DNA from: Phaeotremella fagi
Taxonomy: Eukaryota > Basidiomycota > Tremellomycetes > Tremellales > Phaeotremellaceae
NCBI GenBank assembly: GCA_001599715.1
Contig: BCHU01000010.1
Location: 310,001 to 374,000 of the forward strand
Direction of reading: 5' to 3'
Length of the DNA stretch: 64,000 nt
This document shows, in pieces, positions 39,789 to 54,538 of this stretch (within the stretch, counting starts at the first letter, position 1; each line of letters starts with the position of its first letter). Made by a program: the position numbers and the translations under genes. The notes beneath the pieces are model-generated. The model was given only the letters and a program-made list of their open reading frames with translations, was not told the DNA's origin and did not search any database.

Positions 39789-42160
39789 CTATCCTTCTAC
39801 AACGTATAAAGCTATAGCTGCCAATGCCCTAAAATACAATATGTCAGTCAAATCCTGATGCCCCGAAAATAAAAAGATAACACTTACGTCGACAAAACGA
39901 ACATCATGATATCTACGGCATTGTGATTAGGATTCGTCAAGAATTGAATTGAAAACGGAAAACAAGAAACCACTTACATTGAGCCAATAAGAAACTTGCT
40001 AAAGTATGAGCTGATCCAGCAGGGTTATATAATTGAGTGATAACTAATTGATTGGCTGCTGCCGGTGTACCTGATAACAAGATAGCTACGAATGTTCGAA
40101 CTAAAAACCAATGACAAATTTAACTGTAATCCTCTGCATTGATAGGGTTGACTCACTCTTATCAGCCTTGGGGAAGAGGGATGTATGATCTCGTAAAGCT
40201 TGGACAAAGAAACTGTTTGGTTGTTTTAGTTTTTTATCTGAAATGAAATGATGATCTTGATGATCACTTACATTCCGAAAATGGGAACTAGGATCACTGT
40301 GGTCATATATGTCAGATTGTAGACTTGGTATCAATTTCACGAAAGAACATACTCTTTACAGCTACCATTGACTGCATAACCACCAGTCAGTTAAATCAAG
40401 TCAATTGAATAACATCAACTCACCAATATGGCAGCTATAGGCAACTCCGATATTTTCTTCGGCATCTATTGAAAAAGACAGTCAATCACCAAATACAAAC
40501 AATGGATAACGCGAACCCACACTCAATCTAGCGAAACTAGCACCCAACAAAATCAAACCGGCAGGAACGGTGATTCCACCACAAAAAGTAGCCGTATCCA
40601 AAATAAAAGACAAAGGTGGTTTCCCATCTGGAGCAAACGGAACTCTAGTTTGTGACCAACCGTCAACATCTGTGAAAAGGGCTTTGATCGGTTGAACGAG
40701 AGAACATATTAATCCAGCTACGACGGCGAGTGAGGCGGGCGTTTTACAGAAATTCGTGACTACGTCTATGAGGGGTTGATAGGGTTTCTTGTGGATTGAA
40801 GGAGTAGGTGATTTGGTTTGATGGTATGAATAGGCTTGACCGTTACGTGAGGCTATTGGTAGTAACGGTGGTTGATCAGTTGAAGATCCTGCTATTGGGG
40901 ATGATAAATCTGGTGCGTCCAATGGTTCAGTTAAAGGGATTCTTCGTGTAGTCTCCATCATGGAGGTGAACGAAGGTGTCCGAGAGGTTTTCCTAGTTGG
41001 TACAACCCCACCAGTGAATTTCGATACACTGTACAAATGCGATGGCTCTTCGTCACCCTCATCGTGATCATGATTCGAGTCCGCAATCGAAGATCGTTTT
41101 TTATCTTTGGGACTTGAAAGTGGAACCGATTGAACATCACGATCTTGTTCGACAGCTGTGGAAGTTGATGTTGATTTCTCTGATCGGTGGGTATCCTCTT
41201 CTTCGTCTTTCTTACGGTTCACTAAGTTTTTCAATGTTTGGATTCGACGTTGCCATCTCTCTTTGAACGGGAGTGGGACATTGGCAATCTGATCTTCTCT
41301 GAAATCCCAAGCGCACATCTGAAGGTGTTAGGATTTATTTATTAAAACCCCGAACCAGAACGTAACCCCCGAACCAGAACGTAACTCACCTTATGAGTTC
41401 CACAAGCAAAGAACGCCGTGTTCATAATCAGAATGAAGATACTACATGATAAAAACAAATAAGTTTAGAATCTCCAACAACGACTAAAATTGACTTACGC
41501 GATATAAGCCACACCCAATTGAACATCTGTATCAGGATTAAATGGAGCTGAAAGTGCCATAGTCTGAACGATAGCGGTAGGTAAATTACCCCAATTAGAT
41601 ACAAATCCCATCTAAAAAGAGGTTAAAACGAGTCCAAATTTTAGTGGAAAGGGAAGTAAAACGAACAATCAAAATCCCATATCTAAAATCTTGAGGTACG
41701 TAAAAGATCTCTGATACTACCCAAGCTAGAATTGCACCTAGACATTGATAACTGATAGCGCAAATGACGAGAGGTCCAAAGGCAGAAATGTTCTCTTGAG
41801 TGAACGCTGTGACCATAGATCCAAAAATTAGGGAGGGAAGTGAGATATTCTGTATAGTACAGGTAATTAGTTTTACTATTGTTATCGTGGTTCAATGACG
41901 GACTAACCATCATGATTACACTAACACCTTTTGCATGTTGTGCAGGAAATATTCCTGCTTTGGTGATTATTCCTCCGAACATAATGACCAAAGCCTTTGG
42001 AATCCGGTCAGTAACCATGTGCAAACAACCAAAACAAGATTCTTATCATACCATCTTCAGTGTAGGCGCGAACGCTGATTCCAGCCAATCAGTAAAGTTG
42101 GATTTGAAACTCATCTAACTCACCCTTATATATAATAGTCCCAGCTGCTGTTTCCGACAT
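39789..42160 (-). CDS. Auxin-efflux-carrier-like membrane transporter (Mem_trans family), tandem copy 1
   Basis: Ten-span carrier of the Mem_trans (PIN/PILS) family; fungal relatives include Ecm3-type ER proteins. MSETAAGTIIYKAFAPTLKM opens the N-terminal helix bundle, followed by VIMFGGIITKAGIFPAQ, the conserved NISLPSLIFGSM helix and VVSEIFYVPQDFRYGILIMG. A cytosolic loop of about 200 residues (basic, Ser-rich, ending TRKTSRTPSFTSMMETTRRI) separates it from SLAVVAGLICSLVQPIKALF and PAGLILLGASFARLSM. The C-terminal bundle contains LSGTPAAANQLVITQLYNPA. About ten introns. A near-twin lies upstream at 42746-45069. The substrate is unknown. Confidence 0.82.
41344..41386. repeat. Two direct copies of CGAACCAGAACGTAAC in an intron
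   Basis: Within an intron of transporter copy 1 the 16-mer CGAACCAGAACGTAAC occurs twice almost back to back. It is a local tandem duplication with no wider spread seen. Confidence 0.6.
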
Positions 42161-42745: not shown

Positions 42746-45069
42746 TCAAGCTTCTACTACATATAAAGCTACAGCTGCCAAGGCACTACACGTAGTATCA
42801 GCATTGAGGATTGTCTCCAAAACAAATTCAACGACTTACGTGCAAAGAACGAACATTGCTGCATCTGATTTTCAGATAAATGATCAGTTGAGAGATGGCA
42901 GAGTCACTGGACTATGAAACACTTACACTGAAGTAACAGAAAACTTGCAATCGTATGTGCAGATCCATCGGGGTTGTATAGTTGAGTGACGATAAGTTGG
43001 TTAGCCGCTGCGGGTGTACCAGAGAGTAAGATAGCTGTGAAAGTCCGTACTGCCAGGAGATATGTTAGGATTTGATAAGTGTATTTGGATAAAAAGTACC
43101 TACTTTTATCAGATGTTGGAAAGAAATTGGTTCGACCTTGTAAACCTTGTACCACGAAACTAAATTGTCTTTAGCTGATATCTTTGATCAGTTTAGCGAG
43201 TAACCTACACGCCGAATACTGGAACGAGAACCACTGTAATATAATTAGTAAGTCTTCATGGGACAGGACATACTCTTGGCAACGACCATAGCCTGAAAGA
43301 TCGTGAGTGTTTGCTACTAAAACAAAGAAGAACTTACAGTAATAGCTGACAAAGGCAGATCTCGCCATCGTCTTGGCATCTAAAATCGTAGCAAAGGTTA
43401 GTGTTTGAACATGAAATTCGCCAAGAAACCCACCTCAAGACGTGCAAAACTTGCTCCCAATAACAACAGACCAGCGGGTACAGCTGTAGCTCCAAGGAAT
43501 TCCGTTGTATCAAGAATGAAAGCCAGTGGAGCTTTCCCATCAGGAGCGTTAGGTATCACAGTACCAGTATATCCATCAACAGTAGTGAACAACGCTTTGA
43601 TAGGTTGTATCAACGAACAAGGCAATGCAACCATTACAGCGATAGAAGCAGGAGTCCCGAATAAAGTTTTAACAAACGTCAACAAGATTTTGAATATTTT
43701 CGTGTAAGTCTTCGAAGATGTTGCTTGAGGTTGGTGATAATTAGTTTGAGATGTTGGTAAGATTGTATTTTCAGGTTTTGTAGGTACAGGTGAGAGTGGT
43801 TGGGTTTGGATGTCACTCGCTTCGAGTGGTTCTGTTGGAGGTATACCTCTGGTCGTTTCCATCATAGAGGTGAATGAGGGTGTCCGAGATGTTTTCCTGG
43901 TGGGTACACCACCCATTTTGTTCATTTGATATAAGTTGCCTGCTTGATCCTCGGTTTCACCGTGTGTGGATTCGCTGATTGAAGTTCTTTTATCCCCACT
44001 ACAACTTGGAGAAGACAGGGGTACAGCTCCAGTCCCAGACCCAGATCCAGAGCCATTCAACGCTTTAGTCGTGTGGTCAACTGAGGTAACTGCAGACGAC
44101 TGATTCTCAGCCTCAGATATTTCCTTCTCGCCTTTAATTGAGAACCCAAACAAACGCTTGATCGAGTTGAAACGAGCAGTCCAACGATCTTTTATAGAAT
44201 CCGACGAATCTTGACGCAAACCGTCTCTGAAATCCCAAGCGCAAAGCTGAAGGTGTAAACATTCCATTGAACGATCACATGCCAAAAACGAAACTCACCT
44301 TGTGAAGACCACAAGCGAAGAAAACAGTGTTCATGACGAGAACGAAAATTCTGAGAATACCTCAGTTATCTGGTTATATGTTGAAAGTTATCAAAACAAA
44401 CTTACGAGATATAAGCAACACCCAACTCGACGTCGGTAGCAGGATTAAACGGTGCCGTCGTAGCCATAGTCTGAATGACCGCCGTCGGTAAATTACTCCA
44501 ATTTGAGACAGCCCCCATCTAGCAAACATTCTTCAGTATATAGCCCAATAGGAGAGAAGAGGTGGGGAGGGGACTTACCACTAAAATCCCCCATCTGAAA
44601 TCAACAGGAACATAGAAAATCTCTTTGATGAACCAAGCTAAAACGACACCGACGATTTCGTACAGTATCGCACATACCATCAATGGTCCGATGGCAGATT
44701 GAGTTTGAGGTGAGAAAGCTTGAACTTGAGATGAGAATATCAAAGATGGGAGACCGATATTCTATCCCTGGTGTTTCAACGGATTGTTCCCTGTGTATTG
44801 GAAGGGGGATGGACTCACCAGACTAACTATACTGACACCTTTACCTGCTGCCGGTGGAAACATTCCCATTTTGGTTAGAGTGAATCCGCAACCTATAGAT
44901 ATGGCCTATAACATATTAATCATCTCGTTAAAATACCCAAAGGACCTTACATACCATCTTCAAAGTTGGCGCAAAAGCTACATGGCAAAATCAACATCAG
45001 TTTCCTTAAATTCTCAAAATGACTGATCGACTGACCCTTGTAGATTGTCACTCCTGCTGATGTGGACAT
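42746..45069 (-). CDS. Auxin-efflux-carrier-like membrane transporter (Mem_trans family), tandem copy 2
   Basis: Paralogue of the gene at 39789-42160. MSTSAGVTIYKAFAPTLKM splices at the same codon (K-A) as copy 1. Matching blocks include ISIGCGFTLTKMGMFPPAAG, EIFYVPVDFRWGILV, AIFVLVMNTVFFACGLHK, and in the loop GGVPTRKTSRTPSFTSMMET. The C-terminal half has SIAVMVALPCSLIQPIKALF, VPAGLLLLGASFARLE, and ends ALAAVALYVVEA. The second exon shows the ordinary GT-AG plan, and intron positions appear conserved with copy 1. The cytosolic loop has diverged most (GSGSGSGTGAVPLSS). Its promoter was interrupted on the far side by the transposon, which sits about 400 bp upstream of the start codon. Confidence 0.82.
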
Positions 45070-45463
45070 CCTATAGGTTCCAAGTCCTAAATCCTCACGT
45101 AGAAGTGGTGGTGTTATATATTCACAGAATTGGATTTAAAGAAAGCTTTAGCGATGAAATTCATCGAACCTGTTGTAGGTGGATACAACAAAAATGTGAC
45201 GATTTCAATCTCAGAACTTCAATGTGATTATTCGAGCGTTGAACGAAACTCAGCAGTGTAGTGTCCTTCCCTTGTTATGTTGACAGATGTGGGTAAGATA
45301 TTTAGTTGAGTTCTATGCTATGCCTGACAGAACTGTATGTACAACGAGTCGTATGATCTTGCTTCACAGACTGGAATCATTGTTGACTATTCGGCCGATC
45401 GTCATTTTATATCCATCCGGTGGGGGCTTATGTTGACAAAAATAGACGTTCAGTGCGGGGTCC
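45070..45463. promoter_or_regulatory. Promoter region of transporter copy 2, left of the transposon
   Basis: Non-coding. The transposon target duplication begins at 45464, so the element may separate this promoter from upstream sequence. Confidence 0.4.
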
Positions 45464-45469
45464 ATTCCT
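45464..45469. repeat. Target-site duplication ATTCCT (left)
   Basis: Immediately outside the left inverted repeat; identical to 54364-54369. Confidence 0.8.
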
Positions 45470-45575
45470 TATGGAACGCCGTTGGTACCAACACGTGACT
45501 TATACTTCGACCACTAGAAATATATAGTGTATACATTGCATCTATTTTGATAGACTTTCGTTTTCATATAACTCT
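45470..45575 (+). repeat. Left terminal inverted repeat (about 106 bp)
   Basis: Begins TATGGAACGCC and runs to ATATAACTCT. It matches the reverse complement of 54257-54363 at about 90%, with differences at the extreme tip, in a TATAT/AACAA patch and a 1-nt indel. It contains the palindrome CACGTG (45492-45497) and the half-site GTGTAT (45527-45532). Confidence 0.92.
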
Positions 45576-45718
45576 TTCAATTCTTCACTGATCCTGTTGA
45601 AACTACTTTCATTCGACTCCGCTCGATCATACCTATCGTTTGATCCATTCAAACCTTCAAGGCTTTCCCTTTTTCTTTGTGCTAAGTTTCGTCATCAAAC
45701 TTTCGTTTTTTTAGATTG

Positions 45719-45733
45719 ATACACGTTGGGTAT
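45719..45733 (+). promoter_or_regulatory. Element motif copy 1, ATACACGTTGGGTAT
   Basis: 66 nt upstream of the transposase ATG, preceded by TTTTTTTAGATT as at copy 3. Confidence 0.7.
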
Positions 45734-45798
45734 TCTGTTATATTCCAAAACTTTCCATTTATTCTTCTCATATCGACTTGGTAATTCTTATCATTCAT

Positions 45799-47628
45799 AT
45801 GGTAGGACATCTTCATATCGCTGGCAGCCATCTCATCGATTAGCTAACATTCACTGTAGGCTCAACATAATCCATCTGTCCCCGATTCCTTGACGTCCCA
45901 ACAACGTACTTTCATTCGACAATATGTTCTCGAGATTACTGCTCAAGCAAATAACTACGCCACCAACTCTCCAGGCAGAGATTTGAATCTTCTTGATGGA
46001 TACGTTCAAGGTCTCGAAGATCTTCTCGAAGACATCCTTCCATACGAACCACACTTTGCGCCTCGGCAGTTTTCGATGCTTAAACAATCAATTTATCAAG
46101 CCCAAGAGGAACTGCGCTATGTACAGGAACTCAAGAAAACTTTAGAGAAAGATGCTCCTCCACCCGCTGTTAGACGTAGAGTTCAATCTCCAAACAAGGG
46201 TTGGGAGAAACCAATCAATGAACAATTACTTGAAGAGTGTTATTTCAAAGGGTTGTCTGATCGGAGGACTGGTGTATTGCTTGGATGTGATAGAAAAACG
46301 GTTTTCAGACGTCGTGAAAGACTGAATTTTCACAGAGATAGGTGTGACGATATGAGTCAGGACGAGGTTCTTCATGTACGTATTTCTTCTTCTTCTTCTT
46401 TTCTCTTTACTGATTAAGCCTTATTCTAATTGTCGTAGAGAATCAAGGAGATTTTCCATGATGGTGCTGGACAAGAAGGAGTGGAAAATATAAGCGCTGG
46501 TTTTAGGGGTCAAAGACTATTCCCCAAAAGAGAACGATTAAGACGAATGGTTGGGTTAACAGATACTGGAAGACACTACGTTAATGAACCAACTGGTCGA
46601 CGTGAATACAACGTTGCGTTCCCAAACTCCCTATGGCATATGGATGGACACCACAAACTGATACGCTGGAAAATCGTCATACACGGAGCGATGGATGGGT
46701 ATTCTCGAATGATTCCATTCCTCACCGCCAGTAACAACAACCGTAGCGACACTGTTTATCAAGCATTTCGAGACGCCGTCAGCAGACTTGGTCTTCCCTG
46801 TAGGGTACGAGCTGATCATGGAGGAGAGAACATCTTGGTTAGACAATTTATGGATCGTATGAGAGGTATGTTCGATATTTCACTTCCATCATACACGTTG
46901 TGTATGCTTATATTTCTCTTCCTTTACAGGTCCCAAATTCTTTCTTGCCGGTAGATCTGTACACAATCAACGTATTGAGCGTTTCTGGGTTGACGTTCAA
47001 AAGGATTCAGTGAACAGGTATAAAGCGTTGTTCATGAAATTGGAAAAAGATCGTCATCTCGATGTTGATGACCCTCTTGATATCTTTGCTCTCCATTTCT
47101 GTTTCTTACCAATTGTCAATCACTCCCTTCAATCTGTGGTTAGACGATGGCATTCACATGGTATTCGAACTCAAGAAGGTAATATGTCACCGGAGCAATT
47201 GTGGTTAGTAGGTGAGTTTAGAATAAAATATGATTTATTATTGGCTTACACGAACAGGATTGCATAGCGCAGATGAATTCGGGATCGAAATTGTTCATAC
47301 GATTGGTGTCGATGAAGATGATCATCAGCTTTCGCAACATCATTTTGACCCCCAATTCGAAGCTGCTGAATCTTTCTATACCACGGATCGACATATTCAT
47401 CCCCCTAGCGAAGATGATCCACATGTCATCGTACCAGAGATCTTAGGAAATGTGTCCGAACATATTCGAGATTTACTCACGAGTGAGGATGTGCTTATCG
47501 AACTCGACCGAATTGTTGGATCACCTGTTCCAATCCCTCCTGACCATGGAGTGCAACGCTACAAAGATGCGCGTGAATTTATAAGAGGGGTTGTTGAAGC
47601 AGCTCTTGAAGCTCAACAACGGTTGTAG
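45799..47628 (+). CDS. DDE integrase-type transposase
   Basis: Probably cuts and joins the element's ends. The five-exon model (45799-45801; 45860-46375; 46439-46865; 46930-47211; 47258-47628) sums to 533 codons including stop, an exact frame. The first exon is the ATG alone. Residues 1-110 are helical; a helix-turn-helix-like segment follows (LLEECYFKGLSDRRTGVLLG, CDRKTVFRRRERLNF). The catalytic core has LWHMDGHHKLIRWKIVIHG (first Asp), VRADHGGEN (second Asp, 56 residues later) and GRSVHNQRIERFW (Glu, 32 residues on). These strings mark an integrase-core family common in basidiomycete genomes. The C-terminus is acidic. No frameshift or missing catalytic residue is seen. Confidence 0.92.
46891..46905. 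promoter_or_regulatory. Element motif copy 2, ATACACGTTGTGTAT (in transposase intron 3)
   Basis: Perfect inverted repeat ATACAC-GTT-GTGTAT inside the 46866-46929 intron. Confidence 0.7.
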
Positions 47629-47783
47629 TGATTCGATTTGAATTGGTAATGCTGTATATGCAAAGATTTATTTCTCTCTGTTATCCTTCACTTCCACATT
47701 CATTACCTCTAAGGAATTCCATTCCATATTCAAAACCACTACTCACATTATTGATATCATGTATTTTTTTAGATTACATCGTA

Positions 47784-47798
47784 ATACACGTTGGGTAT
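47784..47798 (+). promoter_or_regulatory. Element motif copy 3, ATACACGTTGGGTAT
   Basis: 122 nt upstream of the ATG at 47920; preceded by TTTTTTTAGATT as at copy 1. Confidence 0.7.
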
Positions 47799-47919
47799 TC
47801 TTGATCCCGTTGCTCTATATTATGCTATCACATCCTTTGAGTATCTCTATCTTTAACTATCATCTTCAACTATCGTTATTCTTCTATTCTTCTAATTGAA
47901 CTTAGCTTTTAATATCAAA

Positions 47920-48595
47920 ATGCAAGCCGAATTCGATATTCATGATCTCAGACACCATTTTCCTCGAATCTTCACGTACCGACTCAACAATATAGAACAA
48001 GATTCCTGTTATTTTTATAATAGAACCAATATGATTATCATCGCTAATCAGTTTTTCATGAACTTGATCGCAATGGATATCAACTGGGTTATAAGTTACA
48101 TGGATATCGAATTTGGTAGCCTTTACAGCAGTTCGTATCACAGGAAAACTGATTCATATTCACGAAAGGGGTAGCAATGGTGCTGACGATATATTAGACG
48201 TCAACGCTGATTTCAACATCTTCGTCCCAGTCCCAAATCTCTTGCATCTTTGGCCTTCAGAGAATCCTTCAGAAACATTGGTCCTGTTTAATGTTAACGC
48301 AGATCCTTACATTTTGGATCTATTCTCGCAATTTGCGTCTCTTGGGTATCAATGGTTTCACCGTCCTCAAAACACCACTTTTGAGATTGACATTAATGGG
48401 CGAGATTTCCATTCATTCATTGGGTGTGTTGAGCAATTGCGTTATGACATCTGCTAACAAATTCTGTTCAGTCAATCAAAAACAATCTTCTTTTTTGCTG
48501 TTGATGTCACTGCGAGTGACGAAGAACAAGAGTTAGAACGGGATGAATTTGAGGTTTGTCTTATGGTTCATCAGCCGATTGAAGATTTGATTTGA
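47920..48595 (+). CDS. Orphan transposon cargo gene (B); exon structure partly uncertain
   Basis: ATG at 47920 opens MQAEFDIHDLRHHFPRIFTY. The frame must shift before FTAVRITGKLIHIHERGSNG; only a very short intron (25-34 nt, near 48096-48130) achieves this, so either an unusual intron or a frameshift is present. The second part continues VNADFNIFVPVPNLLHLWPS to RDFHSFIGQSKTIFFFAVDV through a good 48-nt intron with a CTAAC branch site, ending MVHQPIEDLI. No domain recognised. The beta-rich look of the second half (IHIHERG, DINGRDF) suggests a small globular domain. The gene lies downstream of the transposase in the same direction. Confidence 0.5.
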
Positions 48596-48842
48596 CTTGT
48601 CATACTTGCTGTTTGGTGATCTCTGTATTTGTTTGATGCACTCTCGTTGCCAGTTTGTTTTCGATAAATCGTACATGGTTTCAAGCTCTAAAAATCCTAT
48701 CTGAAATTTTCCCATTCACTTTTCCTCATACCGTTTTCCATTACCTCAAGTCTGACTTCCTGATACTTCGTAGAGAAGCTTAGTTTCACGTGAACTAATC
48801 TCTCGATGAAGCGTTCCTCATTTCGAAATCATCTTTAAACCA

Positions 48843-48857
48843 ATACCCAACGTGTAT
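48843..48857 (-). promoter_or_regulatory. Element motif copy 4, ATACCCAACGTGTAT
   Basis: First of a three-copy cluster between the converging 3' ends of genes B and C. Confidence 0.7.
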
Positions 48858-48891
48858 TGGTCTAAAACTGAAAATTGTTCATTATCACAAA

Positions 48892-48906
48892 ATACACGTT
48901 GTGTAT
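48892..48906. promoter_or_regulatory. Element motif copy 5, ATACACGTTGTGTAT
   Basis: Perfect inverted repeat with GTT spacer; cluster member. Confidence 0.7.
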
Positions 48907-48913
48907 CGAAGTA

Positions 48914-48928
48914 ATACACAACGTGTAC
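48914..48928. promoter_or_regulatory. Element motif copy 6, ATACACAACGTGTAC
   Basis: Symmetric form with one terminal mismatch; 22 bp from copy 5, about two helical turns. Confidence 0.65.
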
Positions 48929-49048
48929 TACCTCATAAACTTGAAAAATCTTCAGTATTACAAGAACTTAGTGATTTATTTCTTAGGCTGAACATCGCAA
49001 TTCAGAAAACAAAGATATCCAGAGTAGTCATTCATCATAATTCATTTG

Positions 49049-50723
49049 CTATGAAGGGTTACCAAATCCACCGAACCTCCGAGCCACTTCTGCTAGTCCA
49101 TCATCAAGAACTTGCATTGCCTTAGCTTGGTTTTTTTTCTTATCGTCCTTAAGCGTAGCAATGTTAGAAACAAAATGATTATGGACTGCTGTAAGGTATG
49201 ACTGGTGTTGTCGTTCGGATTCGGACAGGTTGAAGCTACACACCTGTGTGCAAGCACTACAATTCCTGTGGTTGGGTTTCCTAACACAAGGAACTTGCAG
49301 CGTTCGTTCTTGACACTGGTAACACCTTTCATCACCAAATTTCTCTTCATGACCCTCCGAAAGCCACAACTGTTAGGAAGAATAAAGTCAATACATCATT
49401 GAGAATGTTAACGAAAGCTACCAAACGTACCTCAGCGACCTGCTTCGACCGCTCACCCTTTGCCGCTTTCTTCACCACCAGAGGTTCGTACACCTGACCA
49501 AGTTCCTCAGCCTTCTTTTTACGATGAATCTCTAATGTTCTATGTGCATACCGATCCCCAGTTTTACTGATTCGATTAATTTTTCCCTCTGGAGAAATTA
49601 GAGGGATATGTAACGCAGAATCCGCATTACTTGGACCCGCTGTACGAGTTGAATCTTCTGAATCAGATAGAGATCTTAATGGAGTAGCACTAGGTTTACG
49701 AGATTCACTTCGGAGACGAAGACGTTTTTGAGTAGCTTTAGATTGAGGAACTTGCAAAGTCACCTTTAACGATTTATTTTGTCGTGATCGTAAAGATGAC
49801 CTTCGAGAGGTTTCGTGTGCCTCCGGCAAAGGTGATAAAGGTGATGTTGGAGAATGGGGCGAACGAGAATGAATCGAATTGCGTTCCGGTTCATTCGAAT
49901 TGGGTTCCGGTTCATTCTCCATGCCAAATGAATTACCAAATGGATCGATTTCATTATTTCCAAAAGGTGATTCCCAAGGGTTTTCGAGAGCAGGAAGAGG
50001 GGGAGTCGTTGTATGTGGTATTTCAACAACATGAGCGGCCCCTGGTGTCGGTGATTGTGTTGGTGCGTTTTGAATGTCAAAACGTTTTCGTTTTTTACTC
50101 AAAGCACGAGGAATGAAACTTGAGATTGAGCTATCGGTATTGTGATGTTGAACCTGTAGCCCATCCCCATTCCTGGATACCCAACCTGCTCTTCGACCTT
50201 CTGGAGTGGGAGATGCTCTAGTTGTTGAGGTTGGATCTTGAACTTAAAGGGTAATGTCAGGTTTTTCAGAGTCTCGATACACGTTGGGTAACTTACACAA
50301 ATTTGGATTTTCACTGGGGTTAGAAACACCATTTACTTCACTCAAACGAGGCGATGGGGGATTGGTTGGGTTGGCAGTGAGATCGGATTGTTGATTGAGG
50401 AAATCAGTGTCATTCTCAGCACCTTCGTTCTCTTCAGCTAAACATCACAATTATTACTGGTTACTCTTATAGTCGTAAACATGCAAATGGATAACTGACG
50501 TAGGCTACCAACCAGTGTTTCGTTGACACCACGCGATAATGGTGCATATGAGTTGATAGGAGAGGTCTAACGACGTTCAATTAGACCAATGATAAGAAAG
50601 AAGCTTTCAACACACTACTTGCGAACTTCTACCAACATCACTAACGCTTGGGAGATTCAGAGAACTTGTTTGAGAAGTGGTACTCCAACGACTAGCCGAA
50701 AATTTCGAGAATTGGTTGGCCAT
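49049..50723 (-). CDS. Cargo gene C: disordered basic protein with a six-cysteine cluster
   Basis: Five exons splice in frame from MANQFSKFSASRWSTTSQTS to GLAEVARRFGGFGNPS, about 480 residues. The first 370 residues are disordered, with Ser/Pro/Asn-rich text and basic patches (LSKKRKRFD; KRLRLRSESRKP) that look like nuclear localisation signals. The C-terminal domain carries C-x2-C-x8-C-x8-C-x2-C-x3-C (from CYQCQER to CTQVC), reminiscent of but not identical to a Zn2Cys6 binuclear cluster, followed by a helix (SYLTAVHNHFVSNIATLKDD). This suggests a DNA-binding protein of the nucleus. The intron at 50243-50296 contains motif copy 7; copy 8 lies 223 nt upstream of the start. The exact family is not recognised. 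Confidence 0.78.
50277..50291 (+). promoter_or_regulatory. Element motif copy 7, ATACACGTTGGGTAA (in gene C intron)
   Basis: Inside the 50243-50296 intron; one terminal mismatch. Confidence 0.65.
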
Positions 50724-51333
50724 GCTTGATTTCTTAGATGATTTATGAGTAAATTTGTCTTTTAGATATGATAGTAATAGTTTAAGATAAAAGAAGCTCC
50801 AGCGGCAAATCTCAATGACAACATAGACATCCATCTCCAAGATACTGAAGGAATTGAGCATTTCAGGCGTATCACCCAAGGAATTATCCAAATGAAACAC
50901 CTCCTTTAGACTACTTGTGGCACAGCCTCGTGTTAAAATAACCCAATACCCAACGTGTATTGTTATTTTAATTTTTGTAAAGTCTTTTGTCTTCTACAAG
51001 CATCTTACTACAAGCGAACCCACAAGAACAATGGAAGGAAGAAGATATAGGTTTGCATCCGCACGATAATAACTAAGCCCATCCCCAACCTCGGACGTTC
51101 AAACTAAAATCTAAATAATGTCCATTTCATCAAAAGAATGTGGGGTAAATAAGTCATTCGAAGAGCGTGTTATTCATTGTAGTTGGAACAATCAATAACA
51201 GACGCACAACTTGAAGGGTATAACTTGAAGGGTATATTTAAATGATAAGGAAACAGAAAAATAAGGAAAATATGAGAAACCTAAGCGGTGTCAGAGAAAG
51301 AAATCAATTTGTTGCGGGTATCAAAAAATGCTT
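50724..51333. promoter_or_regulatory. Promoter of gene C and 3' flank of gene D
   Basis: Non-coding. Also contains a direct duplication AACTTGAAGGGTATA near 51208-51236. Confidence 0.45.
50946..50960 (-). promoter_or_regulatory. Element motif copy 8, ATACCCAACGTGTAT
   Basis: 223 nt upstream of the gene C start, in the same gene-relative orientation as copies 1 and 3. Confidence 0.7.
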
Positions 51334-53444
51334 ACTATGGTTGTTCCTCAGACGAGGGGGACTCAGATTGATCTCCCTCTTCAATGTTCTCAAGAACATC
51401 GGAGACAGCGCCATGTTCTTGATCAGGTATGGCGTCTGTAGCTTCTTCGTTGGCATTGGAATCCAAAGTAATCGGAGCTGATTCATTTTGAGAAGATTCT
51501 GATCTTTGTCTAATTCGTTGACTCTGGCGTGTTCCGATATGTCCCCGACGTTGTTGAGCACCAGTGGTATATTCGGGACCAAAGTGGGATTTGTCGTAAG
51601 ACTGTCGACTAATATTTGAAGTTTTGGCTTTGGATTTGGCTGCTGGAAGTTTGATTTTGAGATTGGGAACAGGAGATTGACGTTCGATCTTGGGTCTGAA
51701 GACGATGGTTGGTGAGGAAGAGCTCGATCGTTGACGATGTTTGCGCTTGTCGATTTTATGAGTTCGTTTGGTAAGAACCGGTGAAGGAGAATCTGTAAAA
51801 TCAATGACATCGTTGAAGGGTTTCTGATCGATGGTTCCATGAGCATCGATGGATACGATTGAAGGTTCAGGTGAGTCTTTATCTACCAGTTTGGACCATT
51901 TATAACTGCTGAATGAATCGAAATCATCATCATCAACTCCGTTGTAAAGACCACTGATGGGGGATAGAGACCGTGGACGAAGGGTTGATAGTCCATCTGG
52001 AATTGCAGAGTGGTTTACAGTAGGTCGAAAAGCGTCGAGTTGCTCTTGAAATTCCTTATCGTTATCAACAGCTTGACGCTCCTCAAAGGTAACACCATGC
52101 TAAATGAGATCAAAGTCAGAAATACGCAAAAAACGTTGAACAAAAAGGAATACACGTTGGGTATTGACCAAACATGTGGGATTTGTACTCACAAAAAATT
52201 GCTTGCATAACCGAGTATGAGTGGTGAGGACGGAATCGTCGGTGTAGTCATTTCGATTACAGTATAGACAACGAAGTAGAGGTTGGGGGATTGCTGTGTC
52301 ATCATCTTCTTGTTTATCACAATCGCTGACATCGTCTTCTTCCTCCATTTTTTCATCTCCAGTACCGTCCGATTGCTTCTTTTCTTTATCACTAGTTAAC
52401 CGTTTATATTCGTCTCTCAAAAACGAACCACCTTTACCGGTCAAGAAAATAAATGCTGTACGACAGCTTGAATTATTCTTGGCAAGGTGTGAGAGATATT
52501 GACCTAATTGATGACCGTCGATCAGACCTTGTGAGGAGTCATGCGCAAGAAATGTATCGCATGAGGGAGAAAGATAAGCATGTTGATATTCAGGAAGATC
52601 ACCATTGATATCATCCTTGCAAAGAAAAGCTCTGACGACTTGCATGATCGCATAACCTGAATGATGTTCATAGATGTTGAAAAACCCACAAAGCCTGTGA
52701 ACGACAGTGTAATTTATGATTGATTTAAGTTCCCCTTTCTTGAATTGATACTTCGAATCGATCATTGTGTTATCAGGGAGAAGAATGATCTTGGTAGCGA
52801 TAGGAGATACTGTCTTCTTCTGGTCGGAAGACAAAGATTGAATTTTGTTATTGTTTTTGGATCCAGGTTTACCAGATGCGAATGAGAATCTGCCGGATGC
52901 TCGAGGTGCAGGTGCAGGTTGAGGTGTGGGTGCCGGGCCACAACCAAACGAAGTAGAGTAAGAACCTGGTTCAACATTATAACTCGTCGCAGAACGAATA
53001 AAAGGACTTGAAGTTGTTTGGGTTATTGGGGTATTGGTATTACTTCGATTGTTGGATGGATTGGAAGCAGAATCGGCTGCAAGTGCTTGAGCAAGTTGAC
53101 CACGATAATATGGCTGATATGAGTTTGATTGAAGCGCTTGCTGAGAACCAACGGTAGCTGATTGGGAGGGAATAGATGGTGTAGCTTGTTGACTTTCGAC
53201 ATCAGGACTAAGTACATTACGAGGAAGTACGAGAGGTGGTGGAAGTACAGGAACTGGTTCTCCATCACTACCAGGTGATGGAGCTGGTTGAGGCTGAGGT
53301 TGGGGTTGCGGAACTGCTACTGATTGCAATAGTGCTTGCAGCAATTGCTAAAAATGTGTTAGAAATAAATGATACGAAAAGTTGAATGTCACTTACCATA
53401 GCCGTTGCTGGATCCAGGGAACCGAATTGATTGGGAAGTGACAT
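51334..53444 (-). CDS. Cargo gene D: 655-residue protein with a C2HC-type finger
   Basis: Exons 53444-53397, 53347-52193 and 52098-51334 total 656 codons, an exact frame. MSLPNQFGSLDPATAMQLLQ leads into a Gln/Pro-rich N-terminus and a long Ser-rich linker. A globular core follows (IATKIILLPDNTMIDSKYQF; VVHRLCGFFNIYEHHSGYAI; CRTAFIFLTGKGGSFLRDE). Next is an acidic stretch and LRCLYCNRNDYTDDSVLTTH-TRLC, a Cys-x2-Cys-x12-His-x3-Cys finger. The C-terminal 255 residues are disordered and basic (KIDKRKHRQR), ending acidic. No known family recognised; a DNA- or RNA-binding accessory protein is inferred. Motif copy 9 is in its second intron and copy 10 lies 112 nt upstream. Confidence 0.78.
52150..52164 (+). 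promoter_or_regulatory. Element motif copy 9, ATACACGTTGGGTAT (in gene D intron 2)
   Basis: Inside the 52099-52192 intron. Confidence 0.7.
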
Positions 53445-53555
53445 GGTATGAGGTCTAGAGCGTGAGTGAAAAAGGTGATACAGGGATCTTTGGGATTATT
53501 GAAGAATAGAATAAAATGATAGTGAGTGCGATGATGGTAGATGAAAAACTTCAAT

Positions 53556-53570
53556 ACACTTTGGGTATCC
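53556..53570 (+). promoter_or_regulatory. Element motif copy 10, ATACACTTTGGGTAT
   Basis: 112 nt upstream of the gene D start; one internal mismatch. Confidence 0.6.
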
Positions 53571-53948
53571 ATCAAAATTTCGCAAAAATCTGAAACACGA
53601 CGGCAAAGTCGGTATTATTGAGTGGTGGCATGATGAGATGATCGTAGATGATTAGAATGATATTTATTATAAGGAGAAGAAGAGGTTTGATGTACTTTGG
53701 AGAAAGGTTGACGAGAAATGAGTTGAGGTAGGGGGAGAAGGGAAAAAATTGGTGGTTGAATCTAAGAACGATTAGTTGGTAAATCGAAGGATAGTGTTAT
53801 GGAAGAAAGAGCATGAAATACATACTACGATGTATCTAGATAACATATTGAGGTCCTTGTTGTCTGAAGCTTCACAAATATATTTAAAATAGTGATGATA
53901 GAGGTAGAAGATGAATCTGTACGATTCGAACAAAACAGTGAAAACAAA

Positions 53949-53963
53949 ATACACGTTGTGTAT
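53949..53963. promoter_or_regulatory. Element motif copy 11, ATACACGTTGTGTAT
   Basis: Perfect inverted repeat, 294 bp inside the right terminal repeat. Confidence 0.7.
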
Positions 53964-54256
53964 TCTGCTTCCTGATTGGTCGATGGTCGGAAGTGAGCGT
54001 GGTATCATTATTCCTCTTGAGGGACATCGTTAATTACTCTGGGCTACTGGTAAGTGTGTCTCTGAGGGATTATGTGGAGTTATAGAGCCTTGTTTGAAAA
54101 AAAAATGAATAAACTGAAGACGAAATCAAATTTATCGAGGGGGATTTTGAAAGTGCTTTGAAGGGGTTAGGGAATGGTTGGCTGTGGGAAAACCGATAGT
54201 AAATTGAAGCCGGAATCGATTGGTAGTGGTTTCAAGACGATTGCATCACTGTAGCG

Positions 54257-54363
54257 AGAGTTATATGAAAACGAAAGTCTGGTCAAAATAGATGCAATGT
54301 ATACACTTGTTATTTCTAGTGGTCGAAGTATAAGTCACGTGTTGGTACTAATGGCGCGCCATA
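54257..54363 (-). repeat. Right terminal inverted repeat (about 107 bp)
   Basis: Reverse complement begins TATGGCGCGCC. Contains ATACAC at 54301-54306 and CACGTG, mirroring the left repeat. Confidence 0.92.
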
Positions 54364-54369
54364 ATTCCT
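54364..54369. repeat. Target-site duplication ATTCCT (right)
   Basis: Immediately outside the right inverted repeat; identical to 45464-45469. Confidence 0.8.
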
Positions 54370-54538
54370 AGCCGACAATTACCGCATCTATTATACTACC
54401 TATGAGTTCTATGAATTGAAAGTCCATTCTAAAATCTAAAGATCCTTCTATTCTATTCTGTTCTAAACTGAATGCAAAAAAACGAAACTCTAAGGGGTAT
54501 TGTACTCGAAATCTAAAAAAGTCTTTTGATGTCCGCCA

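Follow-up and report, generated by a model that had tools for sequence, protein, structure and literature searches.

In a 64,000-nucleotide stretch of the genome of Phaeotremella fagi (contig BCHU01000010.1, positions 310,001 to 374,000; this whole stretch is referred to below as the window, and its numbering is used), an 8,894-bp DNA transposon of the IS3EU type carries eleven copies of a 15-bp site. The copies avoid the predicted exons, are nearly private to the element genome-wide and are spread along it more evenly than random placement would give. A dedicated, element-wide site, most simply one that binds a protein, is a well-supported prediction. As the most likely of several candidate mechanisms, we propose that the sites form a private tag bound by a protein of the element that would shield it from silencing, in the manner of the VANC proteins of Arabidopsis VANDAL transposons, and we give this reading about an even chance. 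The repeated word was first noticed in an initial annotation of the window; that observation is confirmed and is made stronger by the genome-wide privacy of the site.

Copies were located in the window by matching ATACACGTTGTGTAT, and all eleven lie within two mismatches of it. The G and T types differ at site position 11, and A to D denote the predicted genes of the element.

45719..45733, + strand: site 1, G type, 65 nt 5' of the predicted ATG of A
46891..46905, + strand: site 2, T type, intron 3 of A
47784..47798, + strand: site 3, G type, A–B intergenic region, 122 nt 5' of the predicted ATG of B
48843..48857, − strand: site 4, G type, between convergent B and C
48892..48906, + strand: site 5, T type, between convergent B and C
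48914..48928, − strand: site 6, T type, with GTACAC, inverted relative to site 5 and 7 nt apart from it
50277..50291, + strand: site 7, G type, with GGGTAA, within an intron of C, where it overlaps the predicted splice donor GTAAGT
50946..50960, − strand: site 8, G type, 222 nt 5' of the predicted ATG of C
52150..52164, + strand: site 9, G type, intron 2 of D
53554..53568, + strand: site 10, G type, TTT centre, 109 nt 5' of the predicted ATG of D
53949..53963, + strand: site 11, T type, 504 nt 5' of the predicted ATG of D, in the terminal non-coding region

Every copy reported initially is present, ten of them where they had been placed, while the one assigned to 53556 begins at 53554. The three sites at 48843–48928 fall within 86 bp and form the sole tight cluster of the element. 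Site 7 is the sole copy with a GGGTAA end, and its differing last base belongs to the donor GTAAGT (50277–50296).

The consensus ATACACGTTGKGTAT is matched exactly by eight of the eleven copies (five with G and three with T at position 11) and with one mismatch by those at 48914, 50277 and 53554. Eleven of the fifteen positions (2–6, 8–10 and 12–14) are invariant, positions 1, 7 and 15 agree in ten copies, and position 11 is G in seven copies and T in four. The word had been described as a palindrome: its arms are indeed related, but they match at only 4–6 of 7 positions, and the site has a direction because the odd G keeps to one side of the centre in all seven G-type sites. The two terminal bases of the site carry 1.39 and 1.28 bits, the bases immediately flanking them 0.83 and 0.71, and the next ones out 0.20 and 0.54; noise lifts single flank columns as high as 0.99 bits. 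The information thus drops at the site borders and the flanks are unrelated; therefore, the copies are not duplicated segments. None of the four tandem arrays found in the element contains a site. A scan of the window for half-sites at spacings of 0–16 gave one extra match, at 46679 in a transposase exon, which was taken as chance. A functionless short palindromic micro-repeat spread by copying would account for the near-identity of the copies, but the host has no exact copy, the flanks share nothing, and a position weight matrix (PWM) scan found no decayed intermediate copies in the element, which leaves this origin scarcely credible.

With up to three mismatches, the window gave 16 rows: the eleven sites, three reverse readings of sites and two matches outside the element (3555 and 18456, three mismatches each); 100 shuffles of the window gave a mean of 1.45 matches and at most 6. 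In the genome (22,626,164 bases in 24 contigs), all eight exact matches and 11 of the 13 with at most one mismatch lie in the element, and a reversed control pattern had one match with one mismatch. The free-spacer form ATACMCNNNGKGTAT occurs at 12 places, nine in the element and three outside, versus none for the control. These counts, which the initial annotation had put forward as a check on its observation, exclude an equal density elsewhere. The PWM gave 24.0–29.7 for the eleven sites, at most 11.3 for their reverse readings and at most 9.2 for other element positions, and its best scores elsewhere were 11.1 in the window flanks and 15.5 in host controls (20 stretches of 10 kb, 200 kb in all); since these eleven sites also served as its training set, their own scores are flattering and the gap below them is the informative part. 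The commonest dispersed 10-mer of the element, with nine copies, is the core of the word, compared with 2–4 copies for the commonest one in 20 control stretches of equal length and 2–3 in five left-flank segments.

The same counts bear on whether the reader of the sites is a transcription or chromatin factor of the host. Introns and promoters are usual locations for host-factor sites, three of the 12 free-spacer places lie outside the element against none for the reversed control, and matches with up to three mismatches on both strands of the genome number 856 against 712 for the control, a small excess that comes partly from the element's own sites. Set against this, the rest of the 22.6 Mb has two one-mismatch matches, compared with one for the reversed control. 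With so few genome matches outside the element, a host factor that needs the full word would therefore have almost no other targets, and we regard a host reader as very unlikely. Given this privacy of the word, its reader is probably encoded by the element, with the orphan cysteine-motif proteins of genes C and D as the candidates.

The placement of the sites was assessed against gene models made by hand from the sequence, without RNA data.

45799..47628, + strand: gene A, predicted transposase, 532 aa, five predicted exons, rva_4/rve integrase core
47921..48595, + strand: gene B, small protein, uncertain model, without a Pfam match
49049..50723, − strand: gene C, 454 aa, CX2CX8CX8CX2CX3C motif and a long predicted helix, no homologue found
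51336..53444, − strand: gene D, 655 aa, with a finger-like CX2C...H...C motif; searches gave no homologue

In these models coding DNA makes up 62% of the element. The first intron of B is uncertain, and the coding map used in the placement tests ends exon 1 of C at 50625, 8 nt too far, the reading phase indicating ~50633.

No site overlaps a base of a predicted exon (0/11; P ~1.1e-5), and the copies at 46891, 50277 and 52150 fall within introns predicted for A, C and D, both as originally described. Three intronic sites are common under random non-coding placement (P 0.37 and 0.40, or 0.25 and 0.28 with the close trio treated as one unit). The initial annotation had also pointed to a copy upstream of every gene and suggested a regulon-wide operator. 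The upstream copies are there, but with exons off limits chance readily puts a site before each gene: all four upstream segments are occupied with P 0.27 (0.32 when the inverted repeats are left out), or 0.17 and 0.21 if the trio counts as a single unit. An operator at which a regulator of the element switches the four genes together, in a form of autoregulation, would suit a word private to the element that stands 65–222 nt before each predicted ATG. However, such upstream occupancy arises in 17–32% of random non-coding placements, six of the eleven sites are not in a 5' position but are intronic or lie between convergent 3' ends, site direction follows transcription in only four of eight gene-assignable cases, and the tiling is more even than chance. 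Between the convergent ends of B and C there is no predicted-gene promoter for the three sites to serve. Because three sites lie between convergent genes and three are intronic, an operator alone is insufficient, and we consider it a rather doubtful explanation.

What does depart from chance is the spacing. The successive gaps along the element are 249, 1172, 893, 1059, 49, 22, 1363, 669, 1204, 1404, 395 and 414 bp. A largest gap of at most 1,404 bp had P 0.00035 in 20,000 random placements and 0.0005 and 0.00025 in two sets of 4,000, and with the trio as one unit it was reached in 0 of 4,000; the mean distance to the nearest site gave P 0.00175 and 0.0015. The spacing test was picked after the sites had been seen, and it depends on the hand-made gene models. 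Even tiling is thus the significant feature of the arrangement and suggests a role that extends over the element's full length.

Regular spacing across the element, together with the inverted pair 7 nt apart at 48892/48914, would also suit accessory sites for transposition, at which a protein of the element bridges or compacts its 8.9 kb for synapsis of the ends, or which the transposase itself binds; a transpososome assembly site had been suggested at the outset. The proposal is weakened by the terminal inverted repeats, which have no comparable site (of the element's 30 top-scoring PWM positions, one lies in them, at 0.2, versus 24.0–29.7 for the sites), and by the lack of clustering near the ends, and we regard it as unlikely. 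A transposase must bind its inverted repeats. The transposase is a less likely reader of the sites because those repeats hold no comparable site.

Site direction further separates signals in DNA from signals in RNA. It agrees with the direction of transcription at 45719, 46891, 47784 and 50946 and disagrees at 50277, 52150, 53554 and 53949; this independence favours a signal that acts as DNA over one that acts as RNA. An RNA-level hairpin or splicing signal could draw on the T type, which forms a 7-bp hairpin (−3.9 kcal/mol, z −2.8), and on the G type read on the same strand (z −2.85 at −1.3 kcal/mol). The commoner G type (7/11), however, has a broken stem pair and its reverse reading reaches −0.5 kcal/mol, eight of the eleven copies lie outside the predicted start-to-stop gene spans, and 45300–54500 has no Rfam match. 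We judge an RNA element unlikely, indeed the least probable of the explanations weighed here.

For the proposed VANC-like tag, we infer the following course of events. A protein encoded by the element, the product of gene C or D and likely a dimer, would bind the eleven sites; once bound, it would coat the non-coding DNA of the element, and this coating would keep host silencing off the whole element, as VANC does on Arabidopsis VANDAL. VANC proteins bind short motifs in VANDAL transposons and remove silencing across the element (PMC5735166, PMC10398659), and Hosaka et al. saw VANC21 in introns, intergenic regions and terminal non-coding DNA of VANDAL (PMC5735166). Sites dispersed evenly over an element would lend themselves to the same outcome. 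VANDAL21/VANC21 and VANDAL6/VANC6 resemble the present element in having a short element-specific motif of two types in introns, intergenic regions and terminal non-coding DNA (PMC5735166, PMC10398659), in carrying non-transposase genes and in living in a host with DNA methylation machinery. The feature that marks VANC targets, an element-specific motif in non-coding DNA, is found here as well. The two systems differ in the transposase (MuDR-type in VANDAL, rva_4/rve of the IS3EU type here), in the site (an 8–9-bp motif in tandem repeats there; a 15-bp directional imperfect palindrome in eleven dispersed copies here) and in the evidence, binding and demethylation having been shown in Arabidopsis whereas the present system is known from its sequence and from proteins without a Pfam match. 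The element thus works like VANDAL/VANC in its predicted layout, yet it is no VANDAL, as both transposase and tandem organisation differ.

The host appears, from its predicted domains, to own silencing machinery that the element could counter. A host gene (L023, 6466–8495) encodes a C5 cytosine methylase domain together with a BAH-like match (E 6e-6) that falls short of the curated cut-off, and Piwi domains are present in the genome. This BAH-like plus C5-methylase layout is the one described for DnmtX, which is kept by Kwoniella and missing in Cryptococcus, and Kwoniella transposons are reported to be methylated (PMC11185503), a parallel that holds only if the host resembles Kwoniella. No Dnmt5, the second enzyme reported for Kwoniella, was among the matches listed (one) from an exon-wise genome search. 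The element itself has a CpG observed/expected ratio of 0.926 (controls 0.765–0.932, mean 0.85), without sign of methylation-driven decay, which fits protection.

Several observations weigh against the VANC-like tag. VANC targets tandem repeats, and the sites of the element are not tandem. Non-coding segments that hold a site number 8 of 16, which is not significantly high (P 0.082). A young insertion would explain the CpG ratio equally well, and only one copy of the element was found in the assembly. C and D have no Pfam family and no PDB match of note; homologues were found neither for D (of 7,992 candidates that were scored, none reached E ≤ 0.001, in a search perhaps swamped by low-complexity words) nor for C residues 340–454 (0 of 146 candidates at E ≤ 1), and the structure model of D is meaningless (predicted local distance difference test, pLDDT, 35). 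For C, a single-sequence model of the last exon (mean pLDDT 68) supports a long helix and nothing more; with modest confidence, this helix is placed at residues 50–103 of the folded piece, after the six-cysteine motif, and such a combination could allow DNA binding as a dimer. Zinc clusters of the Zn2Cys6 type have the spacing C-X2-C-X6-C. A GAL4-type Zn2Cys6 regulator was considered for C and rejected, as its spacing is X8 and the only match was to zf-piccolo at E 0.4. A 21-bp unit occurs twice in the coding region of C (49874–49917).

The element itself is delimited by the following features.

45470..54363, no strand assigned: whole element, IS3EU-type DNA transposon, 8,894 bp, TATGG...CCATA ends, identified by its ends, duplication and rva_4 transposase
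45464..45469, + strand: left target-site duplication, ATTCCT
54364..54369, + strand: right target-site duplication, ATTCCT
45470..45575, + strand: left terminal inverted repeat, 92% identity between the arms
54257..54363, − strand: right terminal inverted repeat

Published marks of the IS3EU superfamily are the ends, the duplication length and the transposase domain (PMC12730594, PMC10045372). The element has TA..TA termini (TATGG...CCATA at 45470/54363), a 6-bp target-site duplication that is perfect on both flanks, inverted repeats of 106–107 bp that are 92% identical and exceed 30 bp as in rust families, and an integrase-like DDE transposase (PF24764, E 4.5e-39; PF00665, E 2.2e-8); its placement in the IS3EU superfamily rests on these ends, duplication and predicted domain. 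The two arms differ at ~8% of positions, including a stretch immediately before the common GTGTATACATTGC. A search with the gene A protein gave 734 proteins at E ≤ 0.001, of which 120 were listed and six were taken for alignment; identity to these six is 31–37%, the best of them being from Tremellales sp. Uapishka_1, and D242, D299 and E332 are invariant in all seven aligned sequences. The nearest transposases among the matches listed are tremellalean. Queried with the products of A, C and D, with the left inverted repeat and with the rva_4 family, the assembly gave no match beyond the 45470–54363 locus, and no second IS3EU transposase was seen at the sensitivity of the searches used; the element is single-copy in the assembly. 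A viral contig collection contained no confirmed relatives of the transposase or of D exon 2, and a 17-base form of the word matched once in each of five of its contigs, which was taken as chance. To the left of the insertion, the neighbouring host open reading frames 40482–41318 and 43398–44285 (− strand) have segments in common, such as TRKTSRTPSFTSMMETTR, in what looks like a local gene duplication.

Two other groups of transposons invite comparison. IS3EU transposons that carry TET/JBP genes, known from rust fungi and a truffle, share with our element the superfamily, the TAYGG..CCRTA ends, the 6-bp duplications and the long inverted repeats, and their accessory genes are thought to counter methylation (PMC12730594). 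There, a TET/JBP gene lies between the transposase and alpha-kinase genes, whereas the scanned pieces of A–D have no Pfam match to TET/JBP or alpha-kinase; the passages on those elements describe no dispersed motif (PMC12730594). A literature search for precedents (IS3EU in Cryptococcus or Kwoniella, fungal anti-silencing transposons, element-private motifs), which covered titles and the starts of abstracts and left subscription papers and preprints largely uncovered, returned none outside the VANDAL work.

The plant elements En/Spm and Ac have subterminal transposase-binding repeats that cluster near the ends. They have in common with the arrangement proposed here that an element-encoded protein recognises a short motif repeated within the element; in contrast to those end-clustered repeats, the present sites tile the whole length and are missing from the inverted repeats.

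That a VANC-like system evolved independently in a fungal DNA transposon, with an orphan zinc protein that uses a private 15-bp directional palindrome, distributed evenly over all the non-coding DNA with introns included, to mark and protect the element's own chromatin while leaving the host genome alone, is a bolder proposal, to which we give somewhat less than an even chance. If true, sequence-specific anti-silencing would be a repeatable solution for transposons, extending beyond the MuDR elements of plants. The dispersed single sites would make the number and spacing of sites that are needed testable, the system would supply a DNA-binding protein together with a site that has almost no host targets, and two orphan fungal proteins gain a concrete hypothesis for their function.

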